Below are positions 5,132-32,620 of a DNA stretch of 41,937 bases, in pieces. The notes beneath the pieces were generated by a model. The model was not told the DNA's origin and ran no database searches. It saw only the letters and a program-made list of their open reading frames with translations. This DNA comes from a virus: positions 1 through 41,937 of the IMG/VR virus record IMGVR_UViG_3300048999_000178. One strand, given 5' to 3'. The position numbers and the translations under genes were made by a program. How positions within the stretch are numbered: the first letter of the stretch is position 1; each line of letters begins with the position of its first letter.

Positions 5132-5223
5132 GAGTTTCTGTAGCGACAGGAATACGCCCTCGTCCTGTCCGGTTGTCGTCCCCAGCAGAGACAGACTTTC
5201 GGCCACGCTTCCGCCAACGTTCC

Positions 5224-5250
5224 GTCTCCCCTGGATACGACACTGCGGCC
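5224..5250 (+). promoter_or_regulatory. Putative leaderless promoter element (GTCTC-N10-GACACT)
   Basis: GTCTC at 5224-5228, 10 bp, GACACT at 5239-5244, then 6 bp to ATG5251. The same architecture recurs before other start codons. A -10-like hexamer this close to the start codon leaves no room for a ribosome site and predicts a leaderless transcript. A diverged relative (CTGTCCGG ... GACAGACTTTCGGCC) lies at about 5165-5203. Confidence 0.5.
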
Positions 5251-5826
5251 ATGCCCAAGAAGCACGATACCCCGGCCATCCGCGCGATCGTCGGCGCGCT
5301 CGATTTCCAACATGTGGCCGTGAAAGAGATCCGGCGCCGGCTCGCCGAGCAGGAATGCGGGCTGCCCTACGCAGTCGAGATCAGTGAGCGGCAGGTTCGC
5401 AACTATCGGCAGGCCTACCGCGACGAACACGGGATGCCGCCCAGCACCGTCCAGACGCCCGACGCACGGTCGGAGACGATCGACGCCGTCCTGGAGCGGG
5501 CGGTCGGATTGCTCGGCCGTGAAGTCACCGCTTATGAAGCCAAGCGGCGCGGCAGCATCACCCCGGAGCGGCTGAAGACGCTGGACACCTTGCACGGCAT
5601 CGCCCGCAGATGGCAGCGCGCGCAGGCCACGGCAGCGGGCAAGCTGACGACGTCGCAGATCGGGACCAACGAGCGGACCCGACCGAAAGCGCAGCCGCAA
5701 GAGTCGACCATCGAGCGCTTGGCACGTGAGGAGCGGGAGCAGAAGGCCGCGACACCGGTCGAGACGCTGGCCGAGCGGGCACGGCGGATGGCGGACGAGC
5801 TCGGCCGGAAAGCCGACGCGGCATGA
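5251..5826 (+). CDS. Putative terminase small subunit (HTH protein)
   Basis: 191 aa from the ATG directly behind the promoter-like element. N-terminal ~60 residues are helical with an HTH-like stretch (HVAVKEIRRRLAEQECGLPYAVEISERQVRNYRQAYR); the middle is an oligomerisation-type helix region, and the C-terminus is a charged coiled coil. Position at the start of the packaging block, 1.8 kb ahead of the large terminase, and the size suggest the small terminase, which would recognise the packaging site. The family assignment is from context; it could instead be a regulator of late genes. Confidence 0.5.
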   Translation: MPKKHDTPAIRAIVGALDFQHVAVKEIRRRLAEQECGLPYAVEISERQVRNYRQAYRDEHGMPPSTVQTPDARSETIDAVLERAVGLLGREVTAYEAKRRGSITPERLKTLDTLHGIARRWQRAQATAAGKLTTSQIGTNERTRPKAQPQESTIERLAREEREQKAATPVETLAERARRMADELGRKADAA

Positions 5827-6074
5827 GCGACGAGGCAAGGCGCGCGATCCACACTGCGATCAGCGAGCACCTTGACGAGGGGGAGATCTGCGTCGGCTGG
5901 TGCATCGTGCTCGACGTGGTCGCACCGGACGAGGTTCGCTACCTGCAGCATCGAGCCGGCGGCGGCGTGGACGGAAGCGAACCGCCGACCGTCTGGGCGG
6001 CACGAGGGATGCTCCAGACGAGTGCCGATGTCGCCGCCGATCAGCTCCGCGACTCCACCGAAGACGCCGGTTAG
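5823..6074 (+). CDS. Hypothetical protein
   Basis: 83 aa, ATG start in an ATGA overlap with the preceding gene. Alpha/beta mix: helix (EARRAIHTAISEHL), hydrophobic strand (CVGWCIVLDVVA), then helix. Resembles small actinophage proteins of unknown role. It is followed by the longest non-coding stretch in the window. Confidence 0.6.
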   Translation: MSDEARRAIHTAISEHLDEGEICVGWCIVLDVVAPDEVRYLQHRAGGGVDGSEPPTVWAARGMLQTSADVAADQLRDSTEDAG

Positions 6075-6454
6075 CCGCCGCACACCACCCCTGCTGAGGC
6101 GTTGAAAGGTAGGGGCAGCGGTTCGGGCGACAGCTTGCGGGTTGGATGGGGTCGAACGGATGGGCGATGGCGAGCGCAAGGTTTGGCTGAATCACGTGCG
6201 TGACAGCGCGTGTTTGGGAATCGGTCTCATCACGTCGCACTGGCGCAATCCCGTGGGCAGACGGTCGCCAATCCCGCATGGTAGGTGGGTTCGGAGGGCC
6301 ACGGCGTCCAATCACAAAGGCTGGATCGTCACCCCCCCACCGCATGGTTGAGCGAAAAACCCCCCGGCCACCCCCGGCGGCGCGCGATGGGACCCGCGAT
6401 CAACTTCCCTACCCACCCTCACACCCGCATTTGCCATTTGCGTCCCCACGTTTA
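6075..6454. other. Non-coding region between putative terS and the RHH gene
   Basis: About 380 bp with no convincing gene (one short open frame at 6142-6351 lacks a ribosome site and a plausible composition). Visible features: G-rich runs with repeated GGATGGG (about 6144-6165), a C-tract region (6330-6380, several runs of 5-7 C), a CCGTGG...CCACGG inverted pair around 6251-6305, and a tandem ATTTGCC/ATTTGCG at about 6430-6443. Between small and large terminase genes, this is a reasonable place for a packaging (pac/cos) site, but nothing here proves it. Confidence 0.4.
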
Positions 6455-6483
6455 GTCCGCCCATTCCCCTAGCGTCTCCGGGC
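6455..6483 (+). promoter_or_regulatory. Putative leaderless promoter element (GTCCG-N10-TAGCGT)
   Basis: GTCCG at 6455-6459, 10 bp, TAGCGT at 6470-6475, then 8 bp to ATG6484. The hexamer fits the TAnnnT -10 pattern of bacterial housekeeping promoters. In this copy the reading frame upstream of the ATG contains a stop (TAG inside the hexamer), so the element is not simply an N-terminal coding repeat. Confidence 0.5.
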
Positions 6484-6822
6484 ATGGAATCCGAGAGCAA
6501 GACCAGGAGGGGCAGACCACCCCGGCCAGCGGCGCTACGGCGAAGCGAGTGGCTCAAAGTGAGGGTCTCGTCGATGGAGCTTGAGGCCATGCAGGTCCGG
6601 GCCGACGCCGAGGGCCTGAGCCTGTCGGCGTTCGTCAGGTCTCGGTGCTGCGTCGACCCCGAGCCGGTGGCGCGGCGATCGCGGGAGGTCGCTCGGCTGC
6701 GGACGGCCGAAGGGACGGCGCCCGGGGATCTCGAGGCGCTGACCCAGCGGCTGTCGGCGACGATGCCGCGGCGCAACGCCGAACATCTGGCACGGCGGGA
6801 ACTGGCGCGGCGCGGCGGATGA
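6484..6822 (+). CDS. Ribbon-helix-helix (Arc/CopG/MobC-like) DNA-binding protein
   Basis: 112 aa. Basic N-terminus (KTRRGRPPRP), then residues about 18-48 with RSEWLKVRVSSMELEAMQVRA..GLSLSAFVR, the strand-helix-helix pattern of RHH proteins as in MobC/CopG. The C-terminus is Arg/Glu-rich helix. Likely a dimeric DNA binder, either a regulator of the packaging/late region or an accessory packaging factor. No ribosome site precedes the ATG, consistent with leaderless translation. Confidence 0.65.
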   Translation: MESESKTRRGRPPRPAALRRSEWLKVRVSSMELEAMQVRADAEGLSLSAFVRSRCCVDPEPVARRSREVARLRTAEGTAPGDLEALTQRLSATMPRRNAEHLARRELARRGG

Positions 6823-6878
6823 CCCCGGAGGAGATCTGCGCAGCGACGACGGTCGAACGGTTAGGCTTCCTCGCGTAA
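6819..6878 (+). CDS. Possible 19-aa leader or microprotein
   Basis: ATG overlapping the stop of the RHH gene (ATGA), reading M-T-P-E-E-I-C-A-A-T-T-V-E-R-L-G-F-L-A then TAA. It resembles the start of a phage HTH/virion protein that has been truncated, or a coupling peptide. Very short; coding status uncertain. Confidence 0.2.
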   Translation: MTPEEICAATTVERLGFLA

Positions 6879-6897
6879 ACGACTGGGGAGGTATGCG

Positions 6898-7251
6898 GTG
6901 AGGAAGATGGTTGTAGCGGCCGTCCTGCTGGCGGCGCTGGTCTTTGCGTCGAGCGCGGCGGCCTGGAAATACAAGCTCACGATGCCTGTCGCCGAACAGG
7001 AAGCGCGGCGCTACACGAAGGAAAGCTGCCTCGAAGACGTGGAATGCGCTGAATGGGGCGTCGACTGTCGGCGGGTGAATGAACAACGGGTGACCTGCCT
7101 CGAGGTCCACTGGTACGAAGTCGAACCGCGCCTGCAGTACGTGGAAGGCGAAGAGGACAAATGCCAGTGGGGAGAGAAGCTCGGCGTCGGGCGCGGCGGC
7201 CATGTGGCCGTGAGCTTCTCGAAGGTCAGCTGCGAATTCGTCGTCCCATAG
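6898..7251 (+). CDS. Secreted cysteine-rich protein
   Basis: 117 aa, GTG start with a good ribosome site (GGGGAGG, 6 bp spacing). Residues 1-22 (MRKMVVAAVLLAALVFASSAAA) are a textbook Sec signal peptide with a likely cut after AAA. The mature part has six cysteines (SCLEDVEC, DCRR, TCLE, KCQW, SCEF), suggesting three disulfides outside the cell. No family recognised. It lies on its own among packaging genes, so it may be a moron expressed for the host's surface, or a late secreted factor. Confidence 0.65.
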   Translation: MRKMVVAAVLLAALVFASSAAAWKYKLTMPVAEQEARRYTKESCLEDVECAEWGVDCRRVNEQRVTCLEVHWYEVEPRLQYVEGEEDKCQWGEKLGVGRGGHVAVSFSKVSCEFVVP

Positions 7252-7409
7252 CTCACCCCTTCCCGGGCATCCCACCTGAGCGGGGTGTCCACGGGATCGC
7301 CGTGCACGGGATCTGGCCTCCTGAACGGATCGACGGTGCGTGCCGGGCGACCTGGGGACTCTTCTCGGAATAGGGGCGCCGGTCACCGAAAACGTCGGCC
7401 GCGCGATGC

Positions 7410-7473
7410 CTCTCCGATAAGGGAGCCGCCTTGCCCTTGGCAGGCCGGGTCTCACACCCGCCGCCGTTCGCGG
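7410..7473 (+). other. Cluster of small hairpins upstream of the large terminase
   Basis: Consecutive inverted repeats: an imperfect CTC(T)CC/GGGAG pair at about 7410-7425; GCC-TT-GCC / GGC-A-GGC at 7428-7445; CGGGT/ACCCG at 7446-7460; CCGC/GCGG at 7461-7473. The last three abut one another. No T-tract follows, so it is not a classical intrinsic terminator. It could stop read-through before the promoters that follow or be part of a packaging site. Not a tRNA: no acceptor stem or T-loop fits. Confidence 0.4.
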
Positions 7474-7479
7474 GGCGTT

Positions 7480-7500
7480 GTCGCCCGTAGCGGCTACACT
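7480..7500 (+). promoter_or_regulatory. Putative promoter (GTCGC-N10-TACACT)
   Basis: GTCGC at 7480-7484, 10 bp, TACACT at 7495-7500, the same spacing as the start-proximal elements, but here about 100 bp before the terminase start. TACACT is a good -10 (TAnnnT). With the copy at 7579 it would form a tandem pair ahead of the terminase and late genes. Confidence 0.4.
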
Positions 7501-7578
7501 GAGGCCTCCTTCTTAGCTTCCACGGCACAGAAGGTAGGGGTCGTACCGGACGCGGGCGGCCTCTTTTTCGTTCCGGGT

Positions 7579-7606
7579 GTCCGCTCCAGAGGCGACACTG
7601 GCCGCC
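7579..7606 (+). promoter_or_regulatory. Putative leaderless promoter element (GTCCG-N10-GACACT)
   Basis: GTCCG 7579-7583, 10 bp, GACACT 7594-7599, 7 bp, then GTG7607. Near-identical to the element before the endolysin gene: both contain TCCAGAG in the spacer. Confidence 0.5.
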
Positions 7607-9457
7607 GTGCCGACCCTCCTCGACCCGAGCGGACCAGACGAGATCCGCGAGCGGCTGCGCGAGGACTTCCCCTACTGGGCCGAGAAGGTCGAGGCCAAGA
7701 TCGTCGACAAGCGGCGCCGCGTCGTGCCGTTCGTCCCCAAACCCGGGCAGCTGGCTCTCGACGCCGAGCTCGAGGCCCAGCGCGCGGCCGGGCTGCCGAT
7801 GCGGGCGATCGTGCTCAAGGCCCGGCAGTTGGGCTTCTCGACCTACATGCAGCTGAAAGCGATCCACCGCTGCACGCTGCGCGAGCGCTACGACGCCGTG
7901 ACGATCGCCCAGAACCGCGGCACCGGCGCGAAGCTCTACCGGATGGCGGAGACCTGCTGGTCGAAACTGCCCAACGACCCGGAGATCAAGCCGAAGCTCG
8001 GCCAGCATCGCCGCCAGCAGTTCATGCACTTCGCAGGCGAGGGCCTCTGGCAGCACGGCGAGGCGTTCCCCGACTCCAGCTACACCGTCGACACCGCCGG
8101 CGAGTTCGACGCCGGCCGCGGCGCCACCTTCCAGATGATCCACGCCTCCGAGATCGCCTTCTGGACGCGGATCACCGACAAGCTCTCGGCGCTGACCAGC
8201 GCGATCCCCGACGACCCCGAGACGCTCTTCGTGCAGGAGTCGACCCCCAACGGCTTCAACGAGTTCCGGGATCTCTGGCTCGACGCCGAAGAGGGGCGCT
8301 CGGAGTGGATCGCCTTCTTCTGGCCGTGGTGGAAAGAGGACGAATACGCGCGGGCCTTCGTCTCCGACGGCGAGCGGGAACGCTTCATCGTCGGCGACCC
8401 GACCAACCCCTACGCCGAGGAAGAGCCCGACCTCGTCCGCAACTACGACCTGACGCTCGAGCAGCTGAACTGGCGACGCCGGGTGATCCCGAACAAATTC
8501 GGCGGCGACATCCGGAAATTCCACCAGGAGATGCCGAGCTCGGCCGAAGAGGCGTTCATCTCCTCCGGTCAGAAGGTCTTCGACGGCTACCGCACTGCGC
8601 AGCTGCTCGTGAAGTGCGAGATCACCGACCCGCGCGCGCCGACCGCCGAGCTACCCGGGCCCGTCATCGGCGACCTGCGGCCCGTCGACATGCGGACCGA
8701 ACCGACGCTCTCGGGCACGGTCGAGGTCCCGCAGGGCGCAGTGCTGCAGCACCGGGCGAGAGGCCTCGTCGACCAGTCGGCGCCGTGGCGCTTCTGGCTG
8801 CACGAGGACGACGAAGGCCAGCTCGAGCGGAAATCCGAGTACGTGATGGGGGTCGACGTCTCCGGCGGCAAGACCGAGACCACCCAGGAGCCCGACTACC
8901 ACGCGATCCAGGTGATCGACCACCGCACCCGCGAGCAGGTCGCCGAGTACCGCAGCCGCATCGAACCGCGGCTGCTGGTGCTGGAGATCCTGCTCGGTGC
9001 CCTGTACTTCAACAACGCCCTGGTCGCGATCGAGCGCACCGGCTCGTGGGGCATGGCGCCGCTGTCGATCCTCTACAACGACTTCCACTATCCGTTCCTC
9101 TACCGCTCGCGGAAGACCGGGACGACGTCGGACCGGGTCGAGCACCGACTCGGCTGGGACACGAACACCCGCACCAAGCCGCTGCTGATCGCCGGGATGG
9201 CCGAGCTCATCCGGATCGAGGAGGACGGCATCAAGAGCCGCGCGCTGGCGGGCGAGATCCGCACCTACACCCGCACCGAGAAAGGCACGATGGAGGCCGA
9301 GCCGGGCAAGTACGACGACCTCCTGATGGCCTTCATGATCGCCCAGGAGGTCGCGCGGCTCTCGCCGATCGTCGGGGCTGGGGGCGACACCGCGGGCGTC
9401 TTCAGCGCGCCCAGCAGGCAGCTGATCGGCCCCGGGGGATATACCGGGCGCCCGTAG
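7607..9457 (+). CDS. terL: Terminase large subunit
   Basis: ATP-driven packaging motor and nuclease that fills the procapsid. 616 aa from GTG7607; GTG7577 is also in frame (626 aa) but lacks a ribosome site and lies within the promoter-like element. ATPase: LKARQLGFST (Walker-A-like, about residues 70-79) and QMIHASEIAFW (Walker B with catalytic E, about 176-186). Nuclease: YVMGVDVSGG (first Asp, about 412-421), AIERTGSWG, and KYDDLLMAFMIA (Asp pair, about 568-579), the RNase-H-like triad. Length is normal for the family. Confidence 0.93.
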   Translation: MPTLLDPSGPDEIRERLREDFPYWAEKVEAKIVDKRRRVVPFVPKPGQLALDAELEAQRAAGLPMRAIVLKARQLGFSTYMQLKAIHRCTLRERYDAVTIAQNRGTGAKLYRMAETCWSKLPNDPEIKPKLGQHRRQQFMHFAGEGLWQHGEAFPDSSYTVDTAGEFDAGRGATFQMIHASEIAFWTRITDKLSALTSAIPDDPETLFVQESTPNGFNEFRDLWLDAEEGRSEWIAFFWPWWKEDEYARAFVSDGERERFIVGDPTNPYAEEEPDLVRNYDLTLEQLNWRRRVIPNKFGGDIRKFHQEMPSSAEEAFISSGQKVFDGYRTAQLLVKCEITDPRAPTAELPGPVIGDLRPVDMRTEPTLSGTVEVPQGAVLQHRARGLVDQSAPWRFWLHEDDEGQLERKSEYVMGVDVSGGKTETTQEPDYHAIQVIDHRTREQVAEYRSRIEPRLLVLEILLGALYFNNALVAIERTGSWGMAPLSILYNDFHYPFLYRSRKTGTTSDRVEHRLGWDTNTRTKPLLIAGMAELIRIEEDGIKSRALAGEIRTYTRTEKGTMEAEPGKYDDLLMAFMIAQEVARLSPIVGAGGDTAGVFSAPSRQLIGPGGYTGRP

Positions 9458-9459
9458 GT

Positions 9460-9487
9460 GTCCGGTGGTTGCGCGACACTGCGGCGC
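9460..9487 (+). promoter_or_regulatory. Putative leaderless promoter element (GTCCG-N10-GACACT)
   Basis: GTCCG 9460-9464, 10 bp, GACACT 9475-9480, 7 bp, GTG9488. It starts 3 bp after the terL stop, leaving exactly room for the element between the two genes. Confidence 0.5.
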
Positions 9488-9751
9488 GTGTCCAGTGGCC
9501 TGTACCTCCCGCCCTCGGCTCTGCCGCCCGCACGGCCCGCGCCGCCGGTCGAGCAGACCAACCAGTGCCTGATGTGCGGCATCGAGATGCCGGCCGGCGA
9601 ACTGCGGCCGTTCCTGCGCCACGTCAAGCGCTGCATGGGCGCCCACCAGGACGACATGACGGGCGCGATCCGCGAGCACGCCCGGTCGATCTTCACCGGC
9701 GCCTCGCCGGACCCCGAGAAGGACGCCCACTTCGCCCGAGGAGGCAACTGA
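9488..9751 (+). CDS. Small C2HC zinc-finger protein between terL and portal
   Basis: 87 aa from GTG9488 (GTG9458 is in frame and would add 10 residues that coincide with the promoter-like element). Proline-rich N-terminus, then CLMCGIEMPAGELRPFLRHVKRC (CxxC, H, C), a zinc finger. Function unknown; position suggests a packaging or head-assembly accessory. Stop overlaps the next ATG (TGATG). Confidence 0.6.
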   Translation: MSSGLYLPPSALPPARPAPPVEQTNQCLMCGIEMPAGELRPFLRHVKRCMGAHQDDMTGAIREHARSIFTGASPDPEKDAHFARGGN

Positions 9752-10218
9752 TGAGCCAGTACAAGGTCGCCGACATCGTGCTGCCGATCAACGAGCAGGA
9801 GGGCTACGAGGCCGGTGACCAGTCCGCGCACCGCGCCGCGCTCGCGATGGGCGACCGCTTCGACGCCCCGACGATCATCGCTCTCACCGACATGCTCAGC
9901 TACCTGATGATGCGTGGGGGGCAGGCGTCGATGACGACGGTCCGCGACCGCGTCGGCCGCGACGGGCTGCCGGTCGCCGACGGCGAACCCGGCGAATACC
10001 GGACGCTCGGGCTGACGATCTTCTACGAGACGCGCGATGCGAAGCTGCAGCTCGCGAAGCCGCCCGAGCGGATCCAGGGGATCCCGGTGGAGGACTTCGA
10101 CCGACCGCCGACGGAGATCGACGACTACAGCACCCTTGGACCCGAGCAGGGTCCCACCACCGAGGAGCTCGAGGAGATTCCCGAGCCCGCAGCTGAGCCC
10201 CTCGCGCTCACCGACTGA
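9751..10218 (+). CDS. Hypothetical acidic protein ahead of portal
   Basis: 155 aa, ATG start with GAGGAGG 6 bp upstream, a strong site. Middle region helical (APTIIALTDMLSYLMMRGGQASMTTVRDRVG), then a beta stretch (EYRTLGLTIFYETRDAKLQL), C-terminus acidic and Pro-rich (EELEEIPEPAAEP). No family recognised. Location between terminase and portal suggests a structural or assembly role. Confidence 0.65.
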   Translation: MSQYKVADIVLPINEQEGYEAGDQSAHRAALAMGDRFDAPTIIALTDMLSYLMMRGGQASMTTVRDRVGRDGLPVADGEPGEYRTLGLTIFYETRDAKLQLAKPPERIQGIPVEDFDRPPTEIDDYSTLGPEQGPTTEELEEIPEPAAEPLALTD

Positions 10219-10226
10219 CCGCCTTG

Positions 10227-12194: not shown

Positions 12195-12199
12195 TCCGG

Positions 12200-12538: not shown

Positions 12539-12556
12539 TCGCCGCGGAGTAGCCCT

Positions 12557-14527
12557 GTGTCCGTCGAAGCCACGATCCCGGTTCTGCCGCTCTTCCCGAA
12601 CGGCACGGTCGTCGGCCTCTACGACGGGCAGGGCTACTCCGAGTTCCCGAGGATCCCCCCGGGCGCTCCGCTGTCGACGGCCACGGTGGCCGCCGGCGCT
12701 GTCACCTTCACCGGCCTGACCGAAAACCACCCCTACTTCGCCGCGGCCGAAGTCGGCTCGCCGGCGAAGTGGCAGGCCAAGCGCTTCATCCCGTTCGCCA
12801 CCGATCCTGAACCCTGGAAGACCAAGGGTCCCAAGGGCGACCGGGGAGAACGCGGCGAACAGGGGGAAAGGGGAACCACCGGGAACACCGGGAGTGCAGG
12901 GGGCACCGGCTCGACCGGCCCAGAAGGCCCGCGCGGTGAAAAAGGAGAAAAAGGCGCTACGGGTTCGCCCGGCTCGACCGGCGAAAAAGGCGAAAAAGGC
13001 GCCACCGGATCCACGGGCTCGCAGGGCGAAAAAGGCGAAAAAGGTGAAAAAGGGTCGACGGGGTCGGCCGGCCCTGAAGGCCCCCGTGGGCTACAGGGTG
13101 AACGGGGCGAAAAAGGCGAAAAAGGGGAAAAAGGCGAAGCCGGCACGGGGGGTGCTTCGGGCGTCTTCGACATCATGTCCCACGGTGGCAACGGGAACGG
13201 GACTGCCGACAACGCCACCGCGCTGACGGCGGCGATCACCGCGGCCACGGAAGCGGGCGGCGGCATCGTCTCGCTGCCGGCCGGCACGTTTGTCGTCAAC
13301 TCGACGGTCACGCTGCCGAGCAAGGTCATCCTGCAGGGAGCGGGCAAAGAAGCCACGATCATCAAGCTCGGCGGCAGCAAAAACGTCCCGATCCTGCGGA
13401 CCTCGAACTTCGAAGGCGGCAGCACGACCGGCGGCTCGATCGGCTTCGGCATCCGCGACATCGGCTTCGACGGCAACAAGGCCAACAACACGACGATGAC
13501 CACGCCGGTCGTCGATCTGGACGGCCTCGCCTTCTTCATCGACAACGTCTACATCTTCAACGGCAAGGCATCGAACCTGCGGACGCAGATGAGCCGCACG
13601 AGTCCGAACACGAAAATGGAGGCCTTCATCTCCAATGTCTTCCTCGAAGAAGCGGGGAAGACCAACTACATCTTCCTCGGCCCGCACGACTCGGTCATCA
13701 CGAACCTGATCGGCGCCGGTAACGGCACCGAAGCGAACATCCTCGTCCAGAACATCTCGAACTGGACCGACTGCCACGTCTACGGCAACTCGAAATACGG
13801 CTTCCAGGTGGAAGGGTATGCCGCCTTCAACAACTGCGATGCAGAGGGGTCGACCAACGGTCACGTCCTCCTCGCCGCCAGCGGCGTGATGTGGAACGGT
13901 GGCCGGGTCTTCTACGGCGGCGGGACTGACGGCCGCAAGGGCTTCCTCCTGAAAGAAGGCGCCACTTCCTGCCAGATCACCGGCGTCGAAGTCGCCAACT
14001 GCACCAGCGGCGCCTTCATCTTCGAAGAACCTGCCTTCCACGGCGCCAAGTGCGTCATCGGCGGGATCGTCTTCGGCGAAGAAGCCAAAGCCGCCGTGAC
14101 GGGGACCGTGGACGAAACGGTCGACTTCTCCAACCTGCACGTCGCGGCGCCGATGACCGGACCCACGCAGGGCGGGACCTCGATCCAGATCGGCATTCCC
14201 TTCAACATTCCGGGCACGATCGCGGCCGGGGAACAGGCGGCCGCCATCGTGCCGCTGAACGAAAACACGCAGACGGTCAAGTCCTTCGCCTTCCTCTGCA
14301 GGGTCGGGACGCTCGGGACGACGGTGAAAGCGAAACTCATCGGGATCACGAGCGGCGGCACGTCGACCACGCTCCTCTCCGGCATCACCGTCAAAGCGGC
14401 TGTGGAATGGCACGAACTGAACCACACGTTCACGGAAGAAGAAATGCTCGTCGTCGAAATCGAATCGATCTCCGGAACCAACAAGAACTTCACCGGCACG
14501 CTGATCGTCCAGTACGAAGCGCCGTGA
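12557..14527 (+). CDS. Collagen-like, beta-helical fibre/spike protein
   Basis: Receptor-binding or host-surface-degrading fibre, probably trimeric. 656 aa, GTG start 8 bp after GGAG. Residues 1-90: small beta domain shared with the preceding gene. About 91-202: collagen-like Gly-X-Y repeats, rich in GEKGEKG, PRG and TGS triplets. About 203-530: right-handed beta-helix of the pectate-lyase-3 type (GNGTADNATALTAAITAA..GGGIVSLPAGTFVV). About 540-656: C-terminal beta-sandwich ending in FTGTLIVQYEAP, likely the receptor or trimerisation domain. Unusual position, between portal and scaffold rather than at the end of the tail genes. Confidence 0.85.
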   Translation: MSVEATIPVLPLFPNGTVVGLYDGQGYSEFPRIPPGAPLSTATVAAGAVTFTGLTENHPYFAAAEVGSPAKWQAKRFIPFATDPEPWKTKGPKGDRGERGEQGERGTTGNTGSAGGTGSTGPEGPRGEKGEKGATGSPGSTGEKGEKGATGSTGSQGEKGEKGEKGSTGSAGPEGPRGLQGERGEKGEKGEKGEAGTGGASGVFDIMSHGGNGNGTADNATALTAAITAATEAGGGIVSLPAGTFVVNSTVTLPSKVILQGAGKEATIIKLGGSKNVPILRTSNFEGGSTTGGSIGFGIRDIGFDGNKANNTTMTTPVVDLDGLAFFIDNVYIFNGKASNLRTQMSRTSPNTKMEAFISNVFLEEAGKTNYIFLGPHDSVITNLIGAGNGTEANILVQNISNWTDCHVYGNSKYGFQVEGYAAFNNCDAEGSTNGHVLLAASGVMWNGGRVFYGGGTDGRKGFLLKEGATSCQITGVEVANCTSGAFIFEEPAFHGAKCVIGGIVFGEEAKAAVTGTVDETVDFSNLHVAAPMTGPTQGGTSIQIGIPFNIPGTIAAGEQAAAIVPLNENTQTVKSFAFLCRVGTLGTTVKAKLIGITSGGTSTTLLSGITVKAAVEWHELNHTFTEEEMLVVEIESISGTNKNFTGTLIVQYEAP

Positions 14528-14676
14528 CGCAGCCCTACCGCAAAGGTGCCAAGGCCCGGACCGCCGCGCTGGCGGCGATGCTCCGCGGCGAACCAGCCCT
14601 CAGGCCTCATCCCCTGGCCGCCGGCAGGAAACTGCAGCGCTCGCGGCGTAAACGTAGGGGCCGTCCGAAGGGCTAG
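14524..14676 (+). CDS. Very basic 50-aa protein
   Basis: GTG start overlapping the fibre stop (GTGA). Arg/Lys-rich throughout, ending RKLQRSRRKRRGRPKG. Possible nucleic-acid-binding or head-interior peptide. Its last 14 bp overlap the promoter-like element of the next gene. The coupled start and clear composition favour a real gene, but there is no family support. Confidence 0.45.
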   Translation: MTQPYRKGAKARTAALAAMLRGEPALRPHPLAAGRKLQRSRRKRRGRPKG

Positions 14677-14690
14677 GCAAACTGCCGCTC
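14663..14690 (+). promoter_or_regulatory. Putative leaderless promoter element (GTCCG-N10-CAAACT)
   Basis: GTCCG 14663-14667, 10 bp, CAAACT 14678-14683, 7 bp, GTG14691. Same spacing as the copies before terL and the endolysin, with a weaker hexamer. It would start the scaffold-capsid operon. Confidence 0.45.
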
Positions 14691-15017
14691 GTGTCCCCCC
14701 TGGACCCGACAGAAGGAATCGTCAGCCCGACCGAGACGGCCGGTCCGACGCTTTACGAGTGGGTCGAGATCGGCCGCCGTGTCCGCGAGATGTGCGACAC
14801 CGACGCCTGGGTGGACCTTCGACGTGGCATCGCCGCCGCGCAGACCGGCAAAGCCGCTCTGCTCATGGGGCAGCCCGGAGACCGCGACCAAGGCGTGCTC
14901 GCAAAGATGATCGGCGAAATGGCCGGTCTCGCGCAGATCCCGACGGTGGCAGCGGAACTGATCCAAGAAGGCGACAGGGCGGCTCAGGAGATCCGCGCTC
15001 GAGAGGAGGGCTCCTGA
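14691..15017 (+). CDS. Hypothetical helical protein ahead of scaffold
   Basis: 108 aa, GTG start without a ribosome site, behind the promoter-like element. Mostly helical, acidic (YEWVEIGRRVREMCDTDAWVDLRRGIAAAQTGKAALL). No family recognised. TGATG coupling to the scaffold gene suggests a head-assembly role. Confidence 0.6.
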   Translation: MSPLDPTEGIVSPTETAGPTLYEWVEIGRRVREMCDTDAWVDLRRGIAAAQTGKAALLMGQPGDRDQGVLAKMIGEMAGLAQIPTVAAELIQEGDRAAQEIRAREEGS

Positions 15018-15772: not shown

Positions 15773-15807
15773 GTACCCGGGGCCGTACCCCTTAGGAGAA
15801 CCACACC

Positions 15808-16983: not shown

Positions 16984-16995
16984 GCCGAGCAGTAG

Positions 16996-17025
16996 GGAGG
17001 GGGCGGCCAGATCGCCGCCCCCTCC
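16996..17025 (+). terminator. Strong hairpin after the capsid gene
   Basis: Perfect 12-bp inverted repeat: 16996-17007 pairs with 17014-17025, loop CAGATC. The stem is all G/C but one A-T pair, so it must be very stable. No T-run follows (GATTC), so it may be a partial terminator or a 3' stabiliser that sets capsid expression apart from the downstream genes. Confidence 0.6.
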
Positions 17026-17063
17026 GATTCACCCGACCCACGTTGAGCCAGGAGGCCCACACC

Positions 17064-22841: not shown

Positions 22842-22844
22842 GCG

Positions 22845-25800
22845 GTGGCGACCGACTTCACGAAATTCGCCACCGGCAAGACGACGACGCTCCGCACCCG
22901 CCGTCGCACCCGCCGCCTGCACGAAGGCCGCGCGAGTCAGCCCGGCATCCCGAAGGGTCCGCGTAACGCCGCTGCGGTCACGCGCCGAGAAGAACGCTTC
23001 CCGTCTGCCACCCAGATTCCGACGGCCGTCCTGCGCGAACACGAAGGCCGCGTAGCGCAGCCCGGTGTCCCCGGCTTCCGCGGCTCGACGGATGCCCTCA
23101 AGGGACTGGGTCTCGGTCTCGAAGGCTCGATCAACCCGGAAATCGCGGCGACGCACGCCTACGAGTCCGGCGCGCCGCTCACCGACGACCAGCGCACCTA
23201 CATCCACGGCCTCTACGGCAAGCCGACGCTCGACGCCGTTGAACAACTCCGCGCCCGGGGCCGCAACGAAGCGCTGAAGGAACCGGCCGACCTGACCAAC
23301 GCGATCCTCGCCATCGCGACGCTCGGCGTGGGGAGCGATCTTGTCGGTGGCGCGAAGGCCGCGCAGGAGGGCGCGGAGGTCGCCGTAGGCGCGGGTGCCA
23401 AGGATGCCGCCGGTGCTGCGGCCGAGGACGCGACGAGCAACGCGGTCAAGGATGCCTTCGCCAAGGTGAGCGCGAAGAAGGCCGCCGCCACCGCGGCCGT
23501 CAAGGACGCCGCCTCCGACGCCGTCCCGCAGGCTGTCAAGGACACCGCCGCGAAGGGTGAGGCTGCGGCGCGGGCCTTCGCCGATCGCACTCCGCAGGCC
23601 GTGAAAACCGCGGCGAAGGTCGGCGCGAAAGGCGTCACCTATCCGATCCGCCATCCGATCGTCTCGCCGATCGCGTTGCAGGTTCCGACGGCGTTCATCC
23701 AGCGCAAACCAGGGGCGCTCGAGGCCGGGTTCACCGGAAGTGGAAACTACGCCGGGCTACTCAACGCCGTGGGGAACATCGTCTCGCCGATCCCGCTCGC
23801 CAAGGAAGCGATCACGCTGCCATCGACCGTTATCCCGTCGCTCTATCTGACGGGTAAAGCGGGCGTTGACGCTGCAACCACCGGAAATACCGCCGAACTC
23901 GGTCAGCTGCTAGACGAGTGGCGCAAAACGGGTCTCCTGCCGCAACTGGTGGAACACGGCCCGTCTGGTGCACTCGAAGCCCTGGAGGACCACCCGCTCT
24001 ACTCCGGCCTCGAACTCTCCGGTGCCGCGAACGCTGCGGGCCGTCTGGCCGGCGCGGGCTTGCGCGCGACGCCCGGGGTCCACGCCGCCGACATCACGCA
24101 GCGCCCCGACGTCGAGATCCCCGGTACGTCGATCAAGGTCGCCCAGGGCAACTACTCGCCCGATGCGCTCAGGCAGCTGATCCAGCGGCGCCTGGATGCC
24201 GGCGATCGCCATCTCGCGCCGGAGCCGGGTAGCCACCGGGCGCGTCACCTGGAAAAGGAGGCCGCCTCGCGTCATGCGACCGATGCACAGACCGAAGCCG
24301 CCCTCCACAACCGAGAACACCTGACGGCGCTCGACAAGGAAATCCTGCCGCGGAAGTGGCGCGGCAAACGGATCGACCGTGCGAGCGCCGAAGTGGTCAA
24401 CCTCGCGGTCGAACGGATCGGCCAGAACCCGAAGACCTTCGTCGACAACCTGCGCGAATACAAAGGCCTCATCGACAAAGCCGCCGAGGCGACCGACAGC
24501 GACGGCCATTCCCTCCTGAACCGCGAGGAGCTCAAACGGAACCGGGCACTCGCGCGGACGATCGACCGCGGGATCAAGCGCGCCAACCCGTCGCATGTCG
24601 TTCAGGCCGCCGACTCCTTCATCGAGCTGCAGAAAGGCGTCCTGCAGGAAATGGTCGACCTCAAGCTGATCACGCCGGAGCGCGCGGAGATGGCCTCGGC
24701 GATCCCGTGGGCCCGTGTCCACCTGGGCGCGAAGTTCGGCGAGCCGGTCAAGCTCTACAAGGACCTCGAACACGAGATCAAAACGACGAAGCGCAGCTTC
24801 CGCCGCGAAGCCCGCGCTCATCTCGCGCCGAAGGATGAGGACGGCCGCGAGGGCGGATACGTCGGCTCCCACCGGGATGCGAAACGCCGTCTGAAGACCG
24901 CCGAATCCGGCTTCGTGCAGGCGGAGCGCGACCTGACCAGAGCCCGCACCCAGCACGCCGATCCCGACGTCGTCGCGCGGAAAACCCAGATCCGCGACGA
25001 CGCGAAGAAGCGAATCGCCACGGCGAAGACTGAGGTCCGGCATACGCAGGCCGCACTGACGCAGGAGACCCGGGCGCTCGCGAAAGAGGGCAAGCGGCGC
25101 CTGGAGCCGCTCGAAGCCCATCTGAAACAGCACCGCAGGAACGGCGAACGGCTGCTCGACGAACACGGCTACCCGCTGAGCCGCGAGGACGTCCACAAAG
25201 AGATGGCCGAACGCGGCGTCGACCTCCCCGGCTTCATGACCCACCGGCCGCCCAGTCCCGGCGACCACTACCAGCCGAGCTTCGGTGGCTCGAGCCTGGA
25301 GAAGGGCGCCCGCACCGGCGACTCGGTCCTGCAGGGGAAACAGGTCAGCGGTCTCGACGCGCTGGTGCGGACGATCAAGCGCGCGCAGGGACTCGTCGAC
25401 CGCGCCCACGCCTGGAACCGAGCGGTCAAGCAGTTCGAGGTCAAGATCCCCGGGATCGACACGATGGCGCAGGCGCGGCGCGTCATCGAAGACCCGACGC
25501 ACTTCGGGCTGCCCGAGGGGACCCGTCTGATGGCCGTCCCGCGTCACCCCTTCGCCGCCACGAAAGACGAGATGGAGGGTGCCCTCGCCGAGCAGCGCCC
25601 GAGCGGTGCCGAGGAACTGATCGGCCAGGACACGGCGGTCGACGCGGGCGAGCAGGCGGGAAATGTGCTGGCGAAAGCGATCGACGACACCTCGGCTCTG
25701 AGTGGTCCCGACGACGCGCCCGCGACCGACATCGTCTTCTTCCCGCAGAAAGTGGGGCAGGTCCTCCGCGACGATGCGCAGGGATCCAGCGAGGGACTTC

Positions 25801-27077
25801 GTGCGGCCCAGATGGCGACGCACCTGTTCAAACGGGCCGTGCTGCCGTTCTCGGTCAGCTTCTACATCGGCAATGGCTTCGACAACTGGATGCGGACGAT
25901 CATGGGTGGCGGCGCGAACCCGCTGAACATCCTCGCCGGCGTCAAGGGCAAGAACGCGCTGACGCCGGAGCGGCAGGCACAGATCCTCGCCGAAGCGCAC
26001 TACGGCTCGGTCGACAAGATCGCGCCGCACAGGTCGATCCAGAACGTCGTCACCGGCGGCGGCAAACTCGCCGACGCGGTGAGGCAGTCGGCCGAGTGGT
26101 ACCACGACCCCCGCGGCGGCGCGGCGCGCAACCTGGTCCGCGCGCTACCGGCGGCGCTCCGGCGGTACACGCAGTTCGCTTTCGCCACGAACGCGCTGAT
26201 CTCCGAGCGGCTGCCGGAGCTCGGCCTGCTCGGCAAACAGGTGCGCGAGGACATCCGCGCGACGCAGGGGTCATGGCTGGCATCGGTGAAACTGAGCGAG
26301 CAGGCGATCGGCGAGTGGGCGAAAGGTGTCGACGACCCGGCGACCCGGATCAAACTGCAGAAGAGCCTCGAGCAGACCCTCGGCAACTACTCGCAGCTGA
26401 GCCCACAGGCGCGGCGGCTCTGGTCGAACGTCGTGCCCTTCTGGACGTGGATGCGCTCGGCCTACAAATACGTCTACGTCACGATGCCGGCGCACCGCTC
26501 GATCCAGACGGCCTTCCTCGCCGCCGCAGCCACGGCGACGAAAGAAGAACGGGAACGCTACGGCCTCGAGAAGTTCGGCAAAGATCCGCTCCCGAGCTAT
26601 CGACAGGGCGCGATCCCGCTGTCGGGCGGCGGCATCCTGCCGACCTCGCAGTACAGCAGCTTCGGCTACGCCAGCGAACCGGCCGAAGCGCTGTCGAGCG
26701 CGGTCGCCGGCCAGGTTCAGGGGCCGCTCGAAGGCCTCCGCGGCGAAACGTTCAGCGGCGACAAGATCGAAGGCGAAGGCAACCGCATCGTCGCGGCCGG
26801 ACTCGGGATGGTCAGCAGCTTCATCCCCGGTGCGAACGAGATCTTCGAACAGGAAGGGACCTCTCTGACCTTCCACCCGCACGTCAGCCACCCGCACGAA
26901 GTCCCCGCGAGCTCCGTCCAGTGGGAGCGGACGCCGAAGGAAACGATCACGGTCGAAAAATCAGACGGCGCCGGCGAAGGCGGATTCGGCGGCGGCTCGT
27001 CCTTCGGCGAAAGCTGGGCGAACCGCGGCGAAGAGAACGCCGGATCGTCCTTCGCGGAATCGTGGGCTGATCGGTGA
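22845..27077 (+). CDS. Giant internal virion / DNA-ejection protein, 1,410 aa
   Basis: GTG start 7 bp after GGAAGG. N-terminus has two copies of HEGRxxQPGxP (about residues 26-36 and 66-76). Residues about 140-360 are Ala-rich with weakly hydrophobic stretches (AILAIATLGVGSDLVGG; VGNIVSPIPLAKEAITLPSTVIPSLYL) that could insert into a membrane. The middle is charged coiled coil. About 1010-1270 is a helical region with aromatic clusters (LFKRAVLPFSVSFYIGNGFDNWM; LWSNVVPFWTWMRSAYKYVYV). The C-terminus ends in two near-identical decapeptides, SSFGESWANR and SSFAESWADR. Fits the largest podovirus ejection protein; no lysozyme motif is seen here, that activity being in the next forward gene. Confidence 0.65.
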   Translation: MATDFTKFATGKTTTLRTRRRTRRLHEGRASQPGIPKGPRNAAAVTRREERFPSATQIPTAVLREHEGRVAQPGVPGFRGSTDALKGLGLGLEGSINPEIAATHAYESGAPLTDDQRTYIHGLYGKPTLDAVEQLRARGRNEALKEPADLTNAILAIATLGVGSDLVGGAKAAQEGAEVAVGAGAKDAAGAAAEDATSNAVKDAFAKVSAKKAAATAAVKDAASDAVPQAVKDTAAKGEAAARAFADRTPQAVKTAAKVGAKGVTYPIRHPIVSPIALQVPTAFIQRKPGALEAGFTGSGNYAGLLNAVGNIVSPIPLAKEAITLPSTVIPSLYLTGKAGVDAATTGNTAELGQLLDEWRKTGLLPQLVEHGPSGALEALEDHPLYSGLELSGAANAAGRLAGAGLRATPGVHAADITQRPDVEIPGTSIKVAQGNYSPDALRQLIQRRLDAGDRHLAPEPGSHRARHLEKEAASRHATDAQTEAALHNREHLTALDKEILPRKWRGKRIDRASAEVVNLAVERIGQNPKTFVDNLREYKGLIDKAAEATDSDGHSLLNREELKRNRALARTIDRGIKRANPSHVVQAADSFIELQKGVLQEMVDLKLITPERAEMASAIPWARVHLGAKFGEPVKLYKDLEHEIKTTKRSFRREARAHLAPKDEDGREGGYVGSHRDAKRRLKTAESGFVQAERDLTRARTQHADPDVVARKTQIRDDAKKRIATAKTEVRHTQAALTQETRALAKEGKRRLEPLEAHLKQHRRNGERLLDEHGYPLSREDVHKEMAERGVDLPGFMTHRPPSPGDHYQPSFGGSSLEKGARTGDSVLQGKQVSGLDALVRTIKRAQGLVDRAHAWNRAVKQFEVKIPGIDTMAQARRVIEDPTHFGLPEGTRLMAVPRHPFAATKDEMEGALAEQRPSGAEELIGQDTAVDAGEQAGNVLAKAIDDTSALSGPDDAPATDIVFFPQKVGQVLRDDAQGSSEGLRAAQMATHLFKRAVLPFSVSFYIGNGFDNWMRTIMGGGANPLNILAGVKGKNALTPERQAQILAEAHYGSVDKIAPHRSIQNVVTGGGKLADAVRQSAEWYHDPRGGAARNLVRALPAALRRYTQFAFATNALISERLPELGLLGKQVREDIRATQGSWLASVKLSEQAIGEWAKGVDDPATRIKLQKSLEQTLGNYSQLSPQARRLWSNVVPFWTWMRSAYKYVYVTMPAHRSIQTAFLAAAATATKEERERYGLEKFGKDPLPSYRQGAIPLSGGGILPTSQYSSFGYASEPAEALSSAVAGQVQGPLEGLRGETFSGDKIEGEGNRIVAAGLGMVSSFIPGANEIFEQEGTSLTFHPHVSHPHEVPASSVQWERTPKETITVEKSDGAGEGGFGGGSSFGESWANRGEENAGSSFAESWADR

Positions 27078-27082
27078 GCCGG

Positions 27083-27355
27083 CTAGTGGGAGAACTGCGC
27101 GAGCTCGCCGCGGAACTCGGCCATCAACTTCCGCGGGCCCATGAGCAGGCCTACGAACACCGTCATCGCCCAGGCGTAGGCGAACACGATGATCAGCACC
27201 CAGGCCGCGCCGCGGCCGCCGACGTTCTGACCGAGCGCCAGAACTCCGTGGCCACCGCCGAGCCACATCACGCCGAGGGCGGTGAAGGCGCCCCAGACTG
27301 CGGTCAGCGCGAGGACCATCAGAACGTATTCGAGCGGCACAAGAATCTTCTTCAT
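27083..27355 (-). CDS. Reverse-strand small membrane protein (moron candidate)
   Basis: 90 aa from ATG27355 (94 aa from ATG27367), lying in the 340-bp gap between two late genes and facing the other way. Two hydrophobic segments (EYVLMVLALTAVWGAFTALGVMWL and AAWVLIIVFAYAWAMTVFVGLL) predict an inner-membrane protein; the C-terminus is charged. A promoter (TTGGCA-N18-TATGCT) sits just upstream, with the -10 only 7 bp from ATG27355, so the mRNA would be leaderless. Own promoter and opposite strand suggest expression from the prophage, for example a superinfection-exclusion role, which is inference. Confidence 0.65.
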   Translation of the reverse strand: MKKILVPLEYVLMVLALTAVWGAFTALGVMWLGGGHGVLALGQNVGGRGAAWVLIIVFAYAWAMTVFVGLLMGPRKLMAEFRGELAQFSH

Positions 27356-27362
27356 GGTCGGG

Positions 27363-27392
27363 AGCATAAAACCGCTTCCACCAAACTGCCAA
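27363..27392 (-). promoter_or_regulatory. Sigma70-type promoter for the reverse-strand membrane gene
   Basis: Reading the minus strand: TTGGCA (27392-27387), 18-bp spacer, TATGCT (27368-27363), then 7 bp to ATG27355. Good -35 and -10 matches in an otherwise G/C-rich region. Confidence 0.55.
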
Positions 27393-27417
27393 CTCGTACA
27401 TTCGCGGAGGCTCGCTG

Positions 27418-29298
27418 ATGGCGGTCCGCACCGGAGGGTTCAACCCCGGCCGCGAACAGGGTCGACGCCTCAAGCCGACCCGCGTCACCGTCAACCGGCA
27501 CACCGGACTTCCGGTTGCGGAAGAGGGCGGCCGTCCCGCCACGCCCGGCCGGACGGTCACGCCGAGCGGCGTCGAACTCGGCGGCGTCCCGCAGGTCTCC
27601 GCGCCGCCGCGTCATCACGTCGGCGACATCCTCGGCGCCCTCGAGAGCCTGACGGCGCCGATCCTGCAGCCCGGCCACTCGGTAACGCAGACGGCCCGCG
27701 CCGCCCTGAACCTGGGGGTAGAGCCTCGGACGGCCCCGCAGCCCGCGAGCGCGTCTACGCAAGCCTCTGAGGAGACGCTCGCGAAAGTCGTCGGCTCGGC
27801 GCTGGGTCACCTGGTCAGCGGTACTCAGGCGCCGAAGATCGCGGCACCGAAGCCGGAAGGCGGCCGGGCTGTCGATGTGTCGCAGCGGACCGGCGCCGCC
27901 AAGAAGAACCCGGCCGATCCGCTGGGTCGCAAGACGCTCGGCAAAGTGACGGCGGCGCAGCTCGCGAAGGCGGCGAAGGAAGGCCACCTGAAGATCAGCA
28001 AGCACGGGATCATCTCGACGCCCGAGGGGCGCCGGGTACTCGCCAATCTGGTCGCTGCCCACGCTGCGGTCGCCGCCTCCGGTGGCAACTCGGTGGAAGA
28101 CCGCGTCGGCCGCTATCTCGTAAGCCACGGCCTCGATCGCGTCGGTGCCTCCGGTGTCATCGGCAACGCCGTGCAGGAGTCGAGCCTCGATCCTGAAGCC
28201 AAGGAAGCGGGTACGCACAACGGCGGTCTCTGGGGATTCACTGCACATCCGAACTCGCTGTCGGACCTCGAACGCTTCGCGGCCGCCAGGGATCAGGACT
28301 GGCGCGACCCGAAGACGCAGACGGCCTTCCTCCTCGAACACGTCAGCCCCGAGACGATCGCCGCGCTGAATCACGCCACGTCACCTGAGCAGGCGGCCGA
28401 AATCTTCCAGAACGAGTTCGAGCACCCGGCGCCCGCGACCGAGAACCAGCCCCGGCGCGAAGAAGGCGCGCAGACGGCGTTCTCGGGCAACTGGGGCAAG
28501 CCCGATCATGAAGCGCTCATCAACCTGCGGATGGCGCAGCGCGTCGCGGTCAAGGCCGGGATCAACCCGGTCCCGTGGAACGGTGACGTCGCGGGCGGCA
28601 ACGGCCAGTACGTCTACATCCGCGCCGACGGCAAGGGCGCCGTCGACTGGGCGCAGTCGGCAGTCGGGACGCAGCAGGGCTCGGCGCGGCAGCTGCACTG
28701 GGCACAGATCACGCACGGCCCGGAAGATCCCTGGTGCGCGGAGTTCGCCGGCGCGGCGATGCTCCGACAGGGACTCTCGATCCCCGAAGACGCCCCCTAC
28801 GCCGGCTCCTACCTGAACTGGAAGGACGGCACGAACATCGGCACCGACCTGAGCAAGCTGAAGCCGGGGGACCTCGTCGTCTTCGGCCCGCAGGGCGGCC
28901 GTGCCGAACACGTCGGCATCTACAAAGGCGACGGCGCGATGATCTCCGGCAACTGGTCCGACGAAGTCGCAGAATCCAGCGTGCTCGAAGAGGCGCAGGG
29001 CGCCGGCCTGCAGGGAATCGTGCGGCCGAACTACAAGGGCGGCAAGATCAAAGTCAAGGCCGGTCAGTTGCCGGGCTCGAGCGTGGGGTCGGTCCCGACG
29101 GGCGGCTTCGTCGGTAGTGGTGCCGGTGGCGAATCGACCGTGGAAGGACCAGCTGCCTCCTCGGCCGCCGCGGCCGGGCATCCGGTATCGCTCGGCGAAG
29201 TCCCGGTCGCCGAAATCCTCGGCCCCGAAACGCAGCTGCTCACCCCCGAGACCGAAGGCGCCATCGCCCGGATCCTCGCCGCGCGGAGGCTGGTCTGA
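27418..29298 (+). CDS. Virion peptidoglycan hydrolase: tail lysozyme plus CHAP/NlpC-type domain
   Basis: 626 aa, ATG 7 bp after GGAGG. Disordered basic N-terminus (about 1-220). About 225-330: phage tail lysozyme domain (DRVGRYLVSHGLDRVGASGVIGNAVQESSLDP..GLWGFT, catalytic Glu in QESS). About 400-545: cysteine amidase/endopeptidase of CHAP/NlpC type, with Cys in DPWCAEFAG, His in RAEHVGIY and a polar residue in SGNWSD. The C-terminus is Gly/Ser/Ala-rich. It would locally open the cell wall during DNA entry; its place next to ejection proteins agrees. Confidence 0.85.
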   Translation: MAVRTGGFNPGREQGRRLKPTRVTVNRHTGLPVAEEGGRPATPGRTVTPSGVELGGVPQVSAPPRHHVGDILGALESLTAPILQPGHSVTQTARAALNLGVEPRTAPQPASASTQASEETLAKVVGSALGHLVSGTQAPKIAAPKPEGGRAVDVSQRTGAAKKNPADPLGRKTLGKVTAAQLAKAAKEGHLKISKHGIISTPEGRRVLANLVAAHAAVAASGGNSVEDRVGRYLVSHGLDRVGASGVIGNAVQESSLDPEAKEAGTHNGGLWGFTAHPNSLSDLERFAAARDQDWRDPKTQTAFLLEHVSPETIAALNHATSPEQAAEIFQNEFEHPAPATENQPRREEGAQTAFSGNWGKPDHEALINLRMAQRVAVKAGINPVPWNGDVAGGNGQYVYIRADGKGAVDWAQSAVGTQQGSARQLHWAQITHGPEDPWCAEFAGAAMLRQGLSIPEDAPYAGSYLNWKDGTNIGTDLSKLKPGDLVVFGPQGGRAEHVGIYKGDGAMISGNWSDEVAESSVLEEAQGAGLQGIVRPNYKGGKIKVKAGQLPGSSVGSVPTGGFVGSGAGGESTVEGPAASSAAAAGHPVSLGEVPVAEILGPETQLLTPETEGAIARILAARRLV

Positions 29299-29300
29299 GT

Positions 29301-29330
29301 GTCGGGTCCACGGGAAACATCTGGCCGCGC
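29301..29330 (+). promoter_or_regulatory. Possible promoter element, diverged copy
   Basis: GTCGG 29301-29305, 9 bp, AAACAT 29315-29320, then CTGGCCGC. It resembles the terL element closely in the flanks (GTGTC.G.TCCA.GG...CTGGCCGC), but lies 30 bp before the next ATG, so the transcript would have a short leader. Confidence 0.35.
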
Positions 29331-29350
29331 TGGCAGAGTGCGGGAAGTGA

Positions 29351-29692
29351 ATGGAGCAAAATCGCTTGAGAGATCTGATCCCCCGATTGCTGGCCGTGAT
29401 GCTCGTCCTCTCCTTCATGGCGATGCTGCTGACGATCGTCATCGACACGGCCCGTGGGCTGCCGGTGGATCCGGTCGCGGTACCGGTCCTCGGGACGCTG
29501 AGCGGCGCGCTCATCACCGCGTTGGCCGGCTTCTGGGTCGCGCAGTCGGAGCCTCGCCGCGAGCCACCCGACCAGCCGCCGCAGAAGCACCAGGTCGAGC
29601 CGACCGGGGACCTCGAGTCCGACGAGTGGAATCGGGATCACGGCTACCTCGAATTCCGGTGGTGGGGTAGGTGGAAGCCGTGTTTACGCTGA
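29351..29692 (+). CDS. Two-TM membrane protein, holin candidate
   Basis: 113 aa. TM1 about residues 12-31 (LLAVMLVLSFMAMLLTIVID), TM2 about 43-64 (VAVPVLGTLSGALITALAGFWVA), then a polar Pro/Glu-rich tail. Two membrane helices, small size and a place just before the endolysin fit a class II holin, which would release the endolysin at lysis. A second forward gene begins inside its 3' end. Confidence 0.55.
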   Translation: MEQNRLRDLIPRLLAVMLVLSFMAMLLTIVIDTARGLPVDPVAVPVLGTLSGALITALAGFWVAQSEPRREPPDQPPQKHQVEPTGDLESDEWNRDHGYLEFRWWGRWKPCLR

Positions 29693-29814
29693 GGCGCGAA
29701 CCAGGTCCGCTGACCTACGTGTGGGGGCTGTGGATGAAAGTCCCGGCGCTCATGTGGCTGGCCGTTCTCGCTCTCGATACCTACGTGACCTACATCGCCG
29801 CGAGGGTCCACTGA
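29671..29814 (+). CDS. Single-TM 47-aa membrane protein
   Basis: GTG start (29671 or 29680) within the end of the previous gene; stop overlaps the next ATG (TGATG). One hydrophobic helix (VPALMWLAVLALDTYVTYIAA). Tightly nested in the lysis cassette, so possibly an antiholin or a lysis accessory. No homology recognised. Confidence 0.5.
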   Translation: MEAVFTLRREPGPLTYVWGLWMKVPALMWLAVLALDTYVTYIAARVH

Positions 29815-30284
29815 TGCCGCTCTGGGCGCTGGTCCTGGTCCTCGGGCTGATCGCGATCGCCGGACTCGCCGTGCTTGCGCCCACCGGCGTCAACGACTGG
29901 CTGAACGAGCACCGCTGGGTGCTCCCGGCGCTGAGCTTCCTCGCCGTCGCCGTCATCGCCCTGCTGGTCGGCGGCTTCTCCACGGCGCTCCGCGAGGACC
30001 AGGTCTCTGCCTGCGAACGGCGCAACCCGGAAGTGGTCGGCGAAGTCGAAAATCTCGAACACGACCGCGCCTTCTTCCGCACTCTCCGGGAGGTCGTCGG
30101 TGCGCGGGCGAAACCCCCGGCGAGGGAAGTCCTGATCACCGCCATGACCCATGAGATCGAGCGGAAGTCCGAAGCGATCGGCTCGAAGGTCGCCGCACGG
30201 GCACGATTCTCAGAACACCCCGGCGCCGAGGCGACGAGCGCCGTGATCGTCAACTGCGCGGCGCAGTACCACGAAGGTCCCTGA
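29814..30284 (+). CDS. Two-TM membrane protein of the lysis cassette
   Basis: 156 aa. TM1 about 3-23 (LWALVLVLGLIAIAGLAVLAP), TM2 about 35-54 (VLPALSFLAVAVIALLVGGF), followed by a 100-residue soluble charged domain with two cysteines (SACERR, VNCAAQ). Could be a second holin-like protein or a spanin-like factor. Coupled (TGATG) to the previous small membrane gene. Confidence 0.55.
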   Translation: MPLWALVLVLGLIAIAGLAVLAPTGVNDWLNEHRWVLPALSFLAVAVIALLVGGFSTALREDQVSACERRNPEVVGEVENLEHDRAFFRTLREVVGARAKPPAREVLITAMTHEIERKSEAIGSKVAARARFSEHPGAEATSAVIVNCAAQYHEGP

Positions 30285-30296
30285 CGCGCTCTTTCT

Positions 30297-30324
30297 GTCC
30301 GGTCCAGAGCAGACACTTCGGGCC
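30297..30324 (+). promoter_or_regulatory. Putative leaderless promoter element (GTCCG-N10-GACACT)
   Basis: GTCCG 30297-30301, 10 bp, GACACT 30312-30317, 7 bp, ATG30325. Intergenic, with no ribosome site between hexamer and ATG. The clearest non-coding instance of the motif together with the one at 6455. Confidence 0.55.
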
Positions 30325-32609: not shown

Positions 32610-32620
32610 GCGTGTGTCGC

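Follow-up and report, generated by a model that had tools for sequence, protein, structure and literature searches.

A repeated element 5' of late genes in a temperate phage genome: a predicted late promoter overlapping a putative palindromic operator

Short elements recur a few base pairs 5' of packaging, structural and lysis genes in an IMG/VR phage genome, raising the question of whether they form one late promoter class for leaderless mRNAs, as the original prediction held. From the sequence, the repeated element appears to consist of two overlapping signals, a late promoter shared by the phage family and a palindromic site that probably serves the phage's own repressor.

The window analyzed here is the whole 41,937-bp virus record, and its relatives are cited as G- or L-numbered sequences. 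The phage is considered temperate because the window encodes a tyrosine integrase; RusA, an SU10-type major capsid protein and two candidate regulators are also encoded. Gene starts throughout the analysis are heuristic calls.

36248..37390, + strand: tyrosine integrase
32037..32474, - strand: candidate immunity repressor Rep, HTH_3, 145 aa
32621..32842, + strand: cro-like regulator, 73 aa, XRE-type helix-turn-helix fold

G002 is a 46-kb relative whose terL is 74% identical to that of the window. A prophage host was not found among the 84,980 species genomes searched, the best terL match being 31% identical. The protein encoded between the portal and scaffold genes (12557-14527) has collagen repeats and a pectate-lyase-type fold and is probably a receptor-binding spike, and the right end of the window carries a C5 cytosine methylase (39315-40232) and a second methylase-like gene recognized by eye (40574-41128). 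The non-coding region 5' of terL (7252-7560) is strongly conserved with G002 and is a candidate RNA, packaging site or leader; an Rfam search gave no match, including for this region.

The 22-bp dyad and its copies in the window

All six sites originally proposed were recovered; in each, exactly 10 bp separate the 5-mer from the hexamer, and a further 6-8 bp lead to an ATG or GTG. The starts were also said to have no ribosome site, and indeed they are without a good Shine-Dalgarno sequence (2-3 of 6 matches as scored by the heuristic caller). In the window, exact GTCCG-N10-GACACT occurs three times on the + strand and is absent from the - strand and from a reversed-pattern control. At three mismatches, 124 matches were seen in the window against 178 expected, which is not above chance, so looser copies carry no weight as GTCCG-N10 sites.

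A larger element encloses GTCCG-N10-GACACT. Four of the six sites (5224, 7579, 9460 and 30297) are the right-hand parts of a 22-bp dyad, GTGTC-N12-GACAC, while those at 6455 (TAGCGT) and 14663 (CAAACT) are not dyad copies and fall in the promoter class instead. Three looser copies had been listed in addition; the ones at 29301 and 37849 are dyad copies, but that at 7480 has two arm mismatches and no start codon behind it. An inverted-repeat scan found five perfect GTGTC-N12-GACAC copies in the window against an expectation of about 0.02-0.1. This dyad ranks first among all 5-mer dyads in the window (G000; p 5e-11) and, independently, in G002 (p 4e-10); its carriers are these two long genomes and one fragment, L004, only, and some scoring matrices were trained on their own hits. 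A 13-bp spacing was rejected, 12 bp being correct. The sites in the window are as follows.

869..890: putative dyad operator, perfect arms, GTGTCTGGTCTGGACCCGACAC, near the rusA 5' end; same place in G002 (23314), where the amino acids differ
1862..1883: putative dyad operator, 2 arm mismatches, 5' of gene 1903-2064
5222..5243: putative dyad operator, 2 arm mismatches, at terS; counterpart at G002 28538
5220-5244: predicted promoter TTCCGTC-N12-GACACT at terS, overlapping the dyad 5222..5243
6451..6475, + strand: promoter-like TTTAGTC-N12-TAGCGT, no dyad, 5' of a ribbon-helix-helix/NikA-like gene (ATG 6484); by eye, a similar layout stands 5' of the orthologue in G005, G008 and G015
7478..7499: dyad-like site, 2 arm mismatches; TACACT (7495-7500) conserved in G002
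7577..7598: putative dyad operator, perfect arms, at terL; right arm plus T gives a -10-like GACACT (7594-7599), GTG start at 7607; counterparts at G002 30900 and L004 176
9458..9479: putative dyad operator, perfect arms, at the zinc-finger gene (znf; GTG 9488); counterparts at G002 32772 and L004 2054
14663..14683, + strand: predicted promoter GTCCGAAGGGCTAGGCAAACT of a scaffold-type operon, no dyad; conserved in G002, layout also in G005
14691..14712: putative dyad operator, 1 arm mismatch, beginning on the GTG of gene 14691-15017, 8 bp after the CAAACT of the 14663 site; weak in G002 (38452)
14779..14800: perfect dyad arms 88 bp into coding sequence, which may be coincidence; same place, with changes, in G002 and L030
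29299..29320: putative dyad operator, 2 arm mismatches, right behind the stop of gene 27418-29298
30295..30316: putative dyad operator, 1 arm mismatch, at the endolysin gene (ATG 30325), overlapped by a predicted TTCTGTC-N12-GACACT promoter; counterpart at G002 7546
32581..32609, + strand: probable early promoter pR of the cro-like gene, TTGCGA-N17-TTTACT; same layout in G002
32614..32635: weak dyad, 2 arm mismatches, over the cro-like start codon; counterpart at G002 9664 (1 mismatch)
37847..37868: putative dyad operator, perfect arms, 5' of gene 37891-38256 behind the integrase; counterpart at G002 14206

The copies at rusA, at the cro-like gene and at the gene behind the integrase mean that the dyad is not a late-only signal. 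The assertion that no site precedes an early operon start thus fails for the dyad (869, 1862, 37847 and, weakly, 32614). Nor does a single late-only class describe the element, since most copies are also a palindrome found at early genes and other elements replace it in other lineages.

We considered whether the palindrome could be a by-product of the GTC and GACAC of a promoter class, with nothing else acting at these sites. The promoter signal does occur without the dyad, but full GTGTC arms occur far more often than chance would give and are also present where the T and the start codon are missing, and dyad-less relatives with the same promoter have a left CGTC, not GTGTC; we regard this explanation as very unlikely. 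At rusA, scaffold and cro the copies are downstream of where transcription probably starts, so the dyads might instead be transcript hairpins or stoperator-like roadblocks to elongation, not promoter operators. The late-gene dyads, however, lie upstream of the likely start and would be untranscribed from that promoter, and the arms are invariant, not compensated, making such a role most improbable.

The late promoter signal

Of 22 dyads, 10 have a start codon 6-8 nt downstream, and in all 10 the base next to the right arm is a T, compared to 1 of the other 12 (p 3e-5). This is expected if GACACT, of the form xAxxxT, is a -10, the role first suggested for the hexamer. In relatives that do not carry the dyad, a weaker pattern, TTYCGTC-N12-[GC]ACACT with a start codon 6-10 nt on, recurs at terL, terS and lysin-type genes. 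GTC stands exactly 12 bp 5' of NANACT-start in 10 of 45 cases from these relatives (next best spacing, 4), of which five are terL promoters alike by descent, so that the independent cases number fewer than ten. The other five lie 5' of lysin-position genes of several unrelated types; only that of G015 matches the window endolysin, the rest being named by place and by eye. Enrichment was also seen for T at -19, -18 and -14 and for C at -13.

A matrix made from nine sites of the dyad-less relatives ranked the window lysin, terS, znf and terL sites first, second, third and fifth among all forward positions; with the same matrix, lysin came first and terS fourth in G002. The place of window sites among the five best supports the proposed promoter class without a normal -35, ending 6-10 nt 5' of packaging and lysis starts. 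Scanning IMG/VR with the promoter pattern gave 23 matches, mostly 5' of short open frames, as by chance, indicating that the exact motif is not widespread. The full pattern stands 7 nt before the ATG of an open frame of 50-80 aa in L172 (12242-12276) and L179 (11779-11813), high-GC contigs unrelated by protein search.

We propose that the first signal is a late promoter of about TTYCGTC-N12-[GC]ACACT, placed 6-10 nt 5' of terL, terS, znf, lysin and some other starts, and that it would probably give leaderless or nearly leaderless mRNAs. As the second signal, most such promoters in the lineage that unites the window with L004 and G002 would double as a 22-bp operator, GTGTC-N12-GACAC; where the two coincide, the right arm GACAC plus T would also be the -10.

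Lineage-specific elements and candidate regulators

Dyads of the window and G002 pair at cro, behind the integrase, and at rusA, terS, terL, znf and lysin. Over ten paired sites, the arms are 92-94% identical compared to 38-50% for the flanks, figures that are slightly off because one pair ('terL-up') is not orthologous; the scaffold pair is weak. The lysin-position genes of the two genomes have no protein match, yet both carry CTGTCCGGT...GACACT 5' of the ATG. In the fragment L004, the dyad stands at both terL and znf.

Other lineages have repeated elements of their own, most of them palindromes, the motifs of which were first chosen by eye. In G005, GAAGTAAATACTTC occurs at cro (32202), scaffold, the lysin-position gene and znf (one arm changed), and these are all its copies at 3 mismatches. 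G008 has TGAATGGCACTCA at cro (4786), terL and znf; G018 has a CTAGTAGA-type element at cro (33223), terL, znf and lysin, as does G017 at znf and lysin. A 22-bp palindrome, CTGTTTGGGTCCACCCAAACAG, stands at znf in G015, with a related palindrome at lysin. No operator was found at G005 terL or G008 lysin, so not every late gene has one. A further candidate, TCCTG-N9-CAGGA of G004 and G005, was dropped because it lies in coding sequence at three of four places.

At znf, 54% of palindromes centred from -24 to -14 score at least 8 of 11, compared to 4% at random places (p 4e-6; 13 phages); across these 13 phages the palindrome recurs near -19 with differing sequence. We also compared the start regions of different genes without choosing a motif. 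The mean match was 11.7 within a genome and 8.1 between lineages (p 3e-12; with the window's lineage left out, p 1e-8), promoter and base composition being not fully controlled in the cross-lineage pairs. A blind best-palindrome scan of all start regions was weakly positive (mean 7.1 versus 6.6, p 5e-4). The two signals, their conservation and the presence of lineage-specific elements at the same genes are thus features of the sequences themselves. In related phages, where the original prediction asked for the spacing to be compared, the promoter spacing and bases recur; the dyad is found in G002 and L004, and other lineages differ.

Many copies of one site are scattered over the phage genome, one copy is found at the early lytic promoter next to the repressor gene in G002, G005, G008 and G018 (weakly in the window), and the motif changes between lineages at places that mostly persist. 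Such a distribution, with a lineage-specific element at the early promoter by rep and also at dispersed late genes, is typical of immunity operators such as those of L5 and P1. The rep and cro genes adjoin in 6 of 6 relatives where both were found. In AlphaFold predictions, the Cro-like protein adopts an XRE-type five-helix fold and Rep is a helical HTH protein. Residues 29-41 of the Cro-like protein, the recognition region, are identical between the window and G002, whereas Rep is 49-51% identical, which slightly favors the Cro-like protein as the binder; counter to this preference, G017 and G018 share both Rep and Cro. No relative of either protein was found among named phages, the only related Cro in IMG/VR was that of G002, and a sequence search of solved structures gave nothing useful.

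From this arrangement we infer that a dimer of Rep (145 aa), of the Cro-like protein (73 aa), or of both would bind the dyad, and that in a lysogen the early promoter pR would be shut and many late genes, lysis included, locked. Each lineage would have its own Rep/Cro immunity system, with operators at the early promoter and many late promoters. As a whole, this explanation, a late promoter joined to a palindromic Rep/Cro operator, appears reasonably likely.

Alternatively, the dyad could bind a phage late activator similar to Lpa of P1, a dimer about 20 bp before the start aiding polymerase at a -10 without a -35 and shutting early genes where it lies over their starts. Consistent with this, the late sites have no normal -35, the dyad centre is at -19 in the window and G002, and the promoter-box TT has been lost from the terL and znf copies, whose arms remain perfect; in P1, Lpa binds a conserved 9-bp inverted repeat found in 11 late promoters (PMC10695390). 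The putative lysin operators of G005 and G015 lie upstream, near -43, a position that an activator could occupy as well. However, the palindrome position varies (about -43, -19, and +8 to +11), relatives retain the late promoter while other palindromes replace the dyad, and copies lie at cro, rusA and behind the integrase. We therefore consider an activator unlikely, and a repressor acting on promoters is clearly preferred. Only tentatively do we propose the repressor model in its most specific form, in which the immunity regulator would directly lock many late genes, those for packaging and lysis among them, through operators fused to leaderless late promoters, with one arm as the -10, and lineages would swap specificity at about the same genes; the late promoter TTYCGTC-N12-SACACT would then need a further phage factor.

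Comparison with known systems

If the repressor model is true, about ten related uncultured phages form a natural series for comparing operator sequence, Rep/Cro recognition helices and promoter positions, and heteroimmunity would be predictable from sequence. It would also give leaderless phage mRNAs a late-promoter motif that can be tested, and would be an example of one palindrome arm serving both polymerase and regulator. The temperate Streptomyces actinophage phiC31 has palindromic repressor sites, its conserved inverted repeats, at many places; their sequence and length differ from those of the window dyad.

The cluster A mycobacteriophage L5 carries a single type of repressor site more than 20 times, in promoters and in short gaps between genes, and the motif of this type diverges between lineages together with the repressor (PMC9283540, PMC6550527). 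The window resembles L5 in its dispersed copies of one site and in a motif that differs by lineage. L5 sites, however, span 13 bp, are asymmetric, bind a monomer and follow the direction of transcription, whereas the 22-bp palindromes of the window overlap or abut promoters; the window dyad is thus not a cluster A stoperator, which is 13-bp, asymmetric and in one orientation. The C1 repressor of P1 has 22 operators dispersed over the genome and represses lytic genes (PMC8546580). Genome-wide dispersal is common to both, but the C1 consensus is 17-bp and asymmetric, and C1 reaches late genes through lpa, whereas the putative operators of the window lie on the late genes themselves.

The Lpa late promoters of P1 are marked by a -22 position. 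The window sites are like them in having a putative -10 and an inverted repeat that replaces the -35 (PMC10695390). Unlike in P1, the palindrome is lineage-specific and also found at early genes; it is present in most, not all, late promoters of the window and is replaced in relatives. The leaderless TANNNT promoters of Mycobacterium tuberculosis have a -10 just before the start codon and no conserved -35 (PMC3898074), and the window sites share both the -10-like hexamer just 5' of the start and the missing conserved -35. Compared with TANNNT of M. tuberculosis, the A and T are kept, the first base is G or C, and a TTYCGTC box recurs 12 bp upstream.
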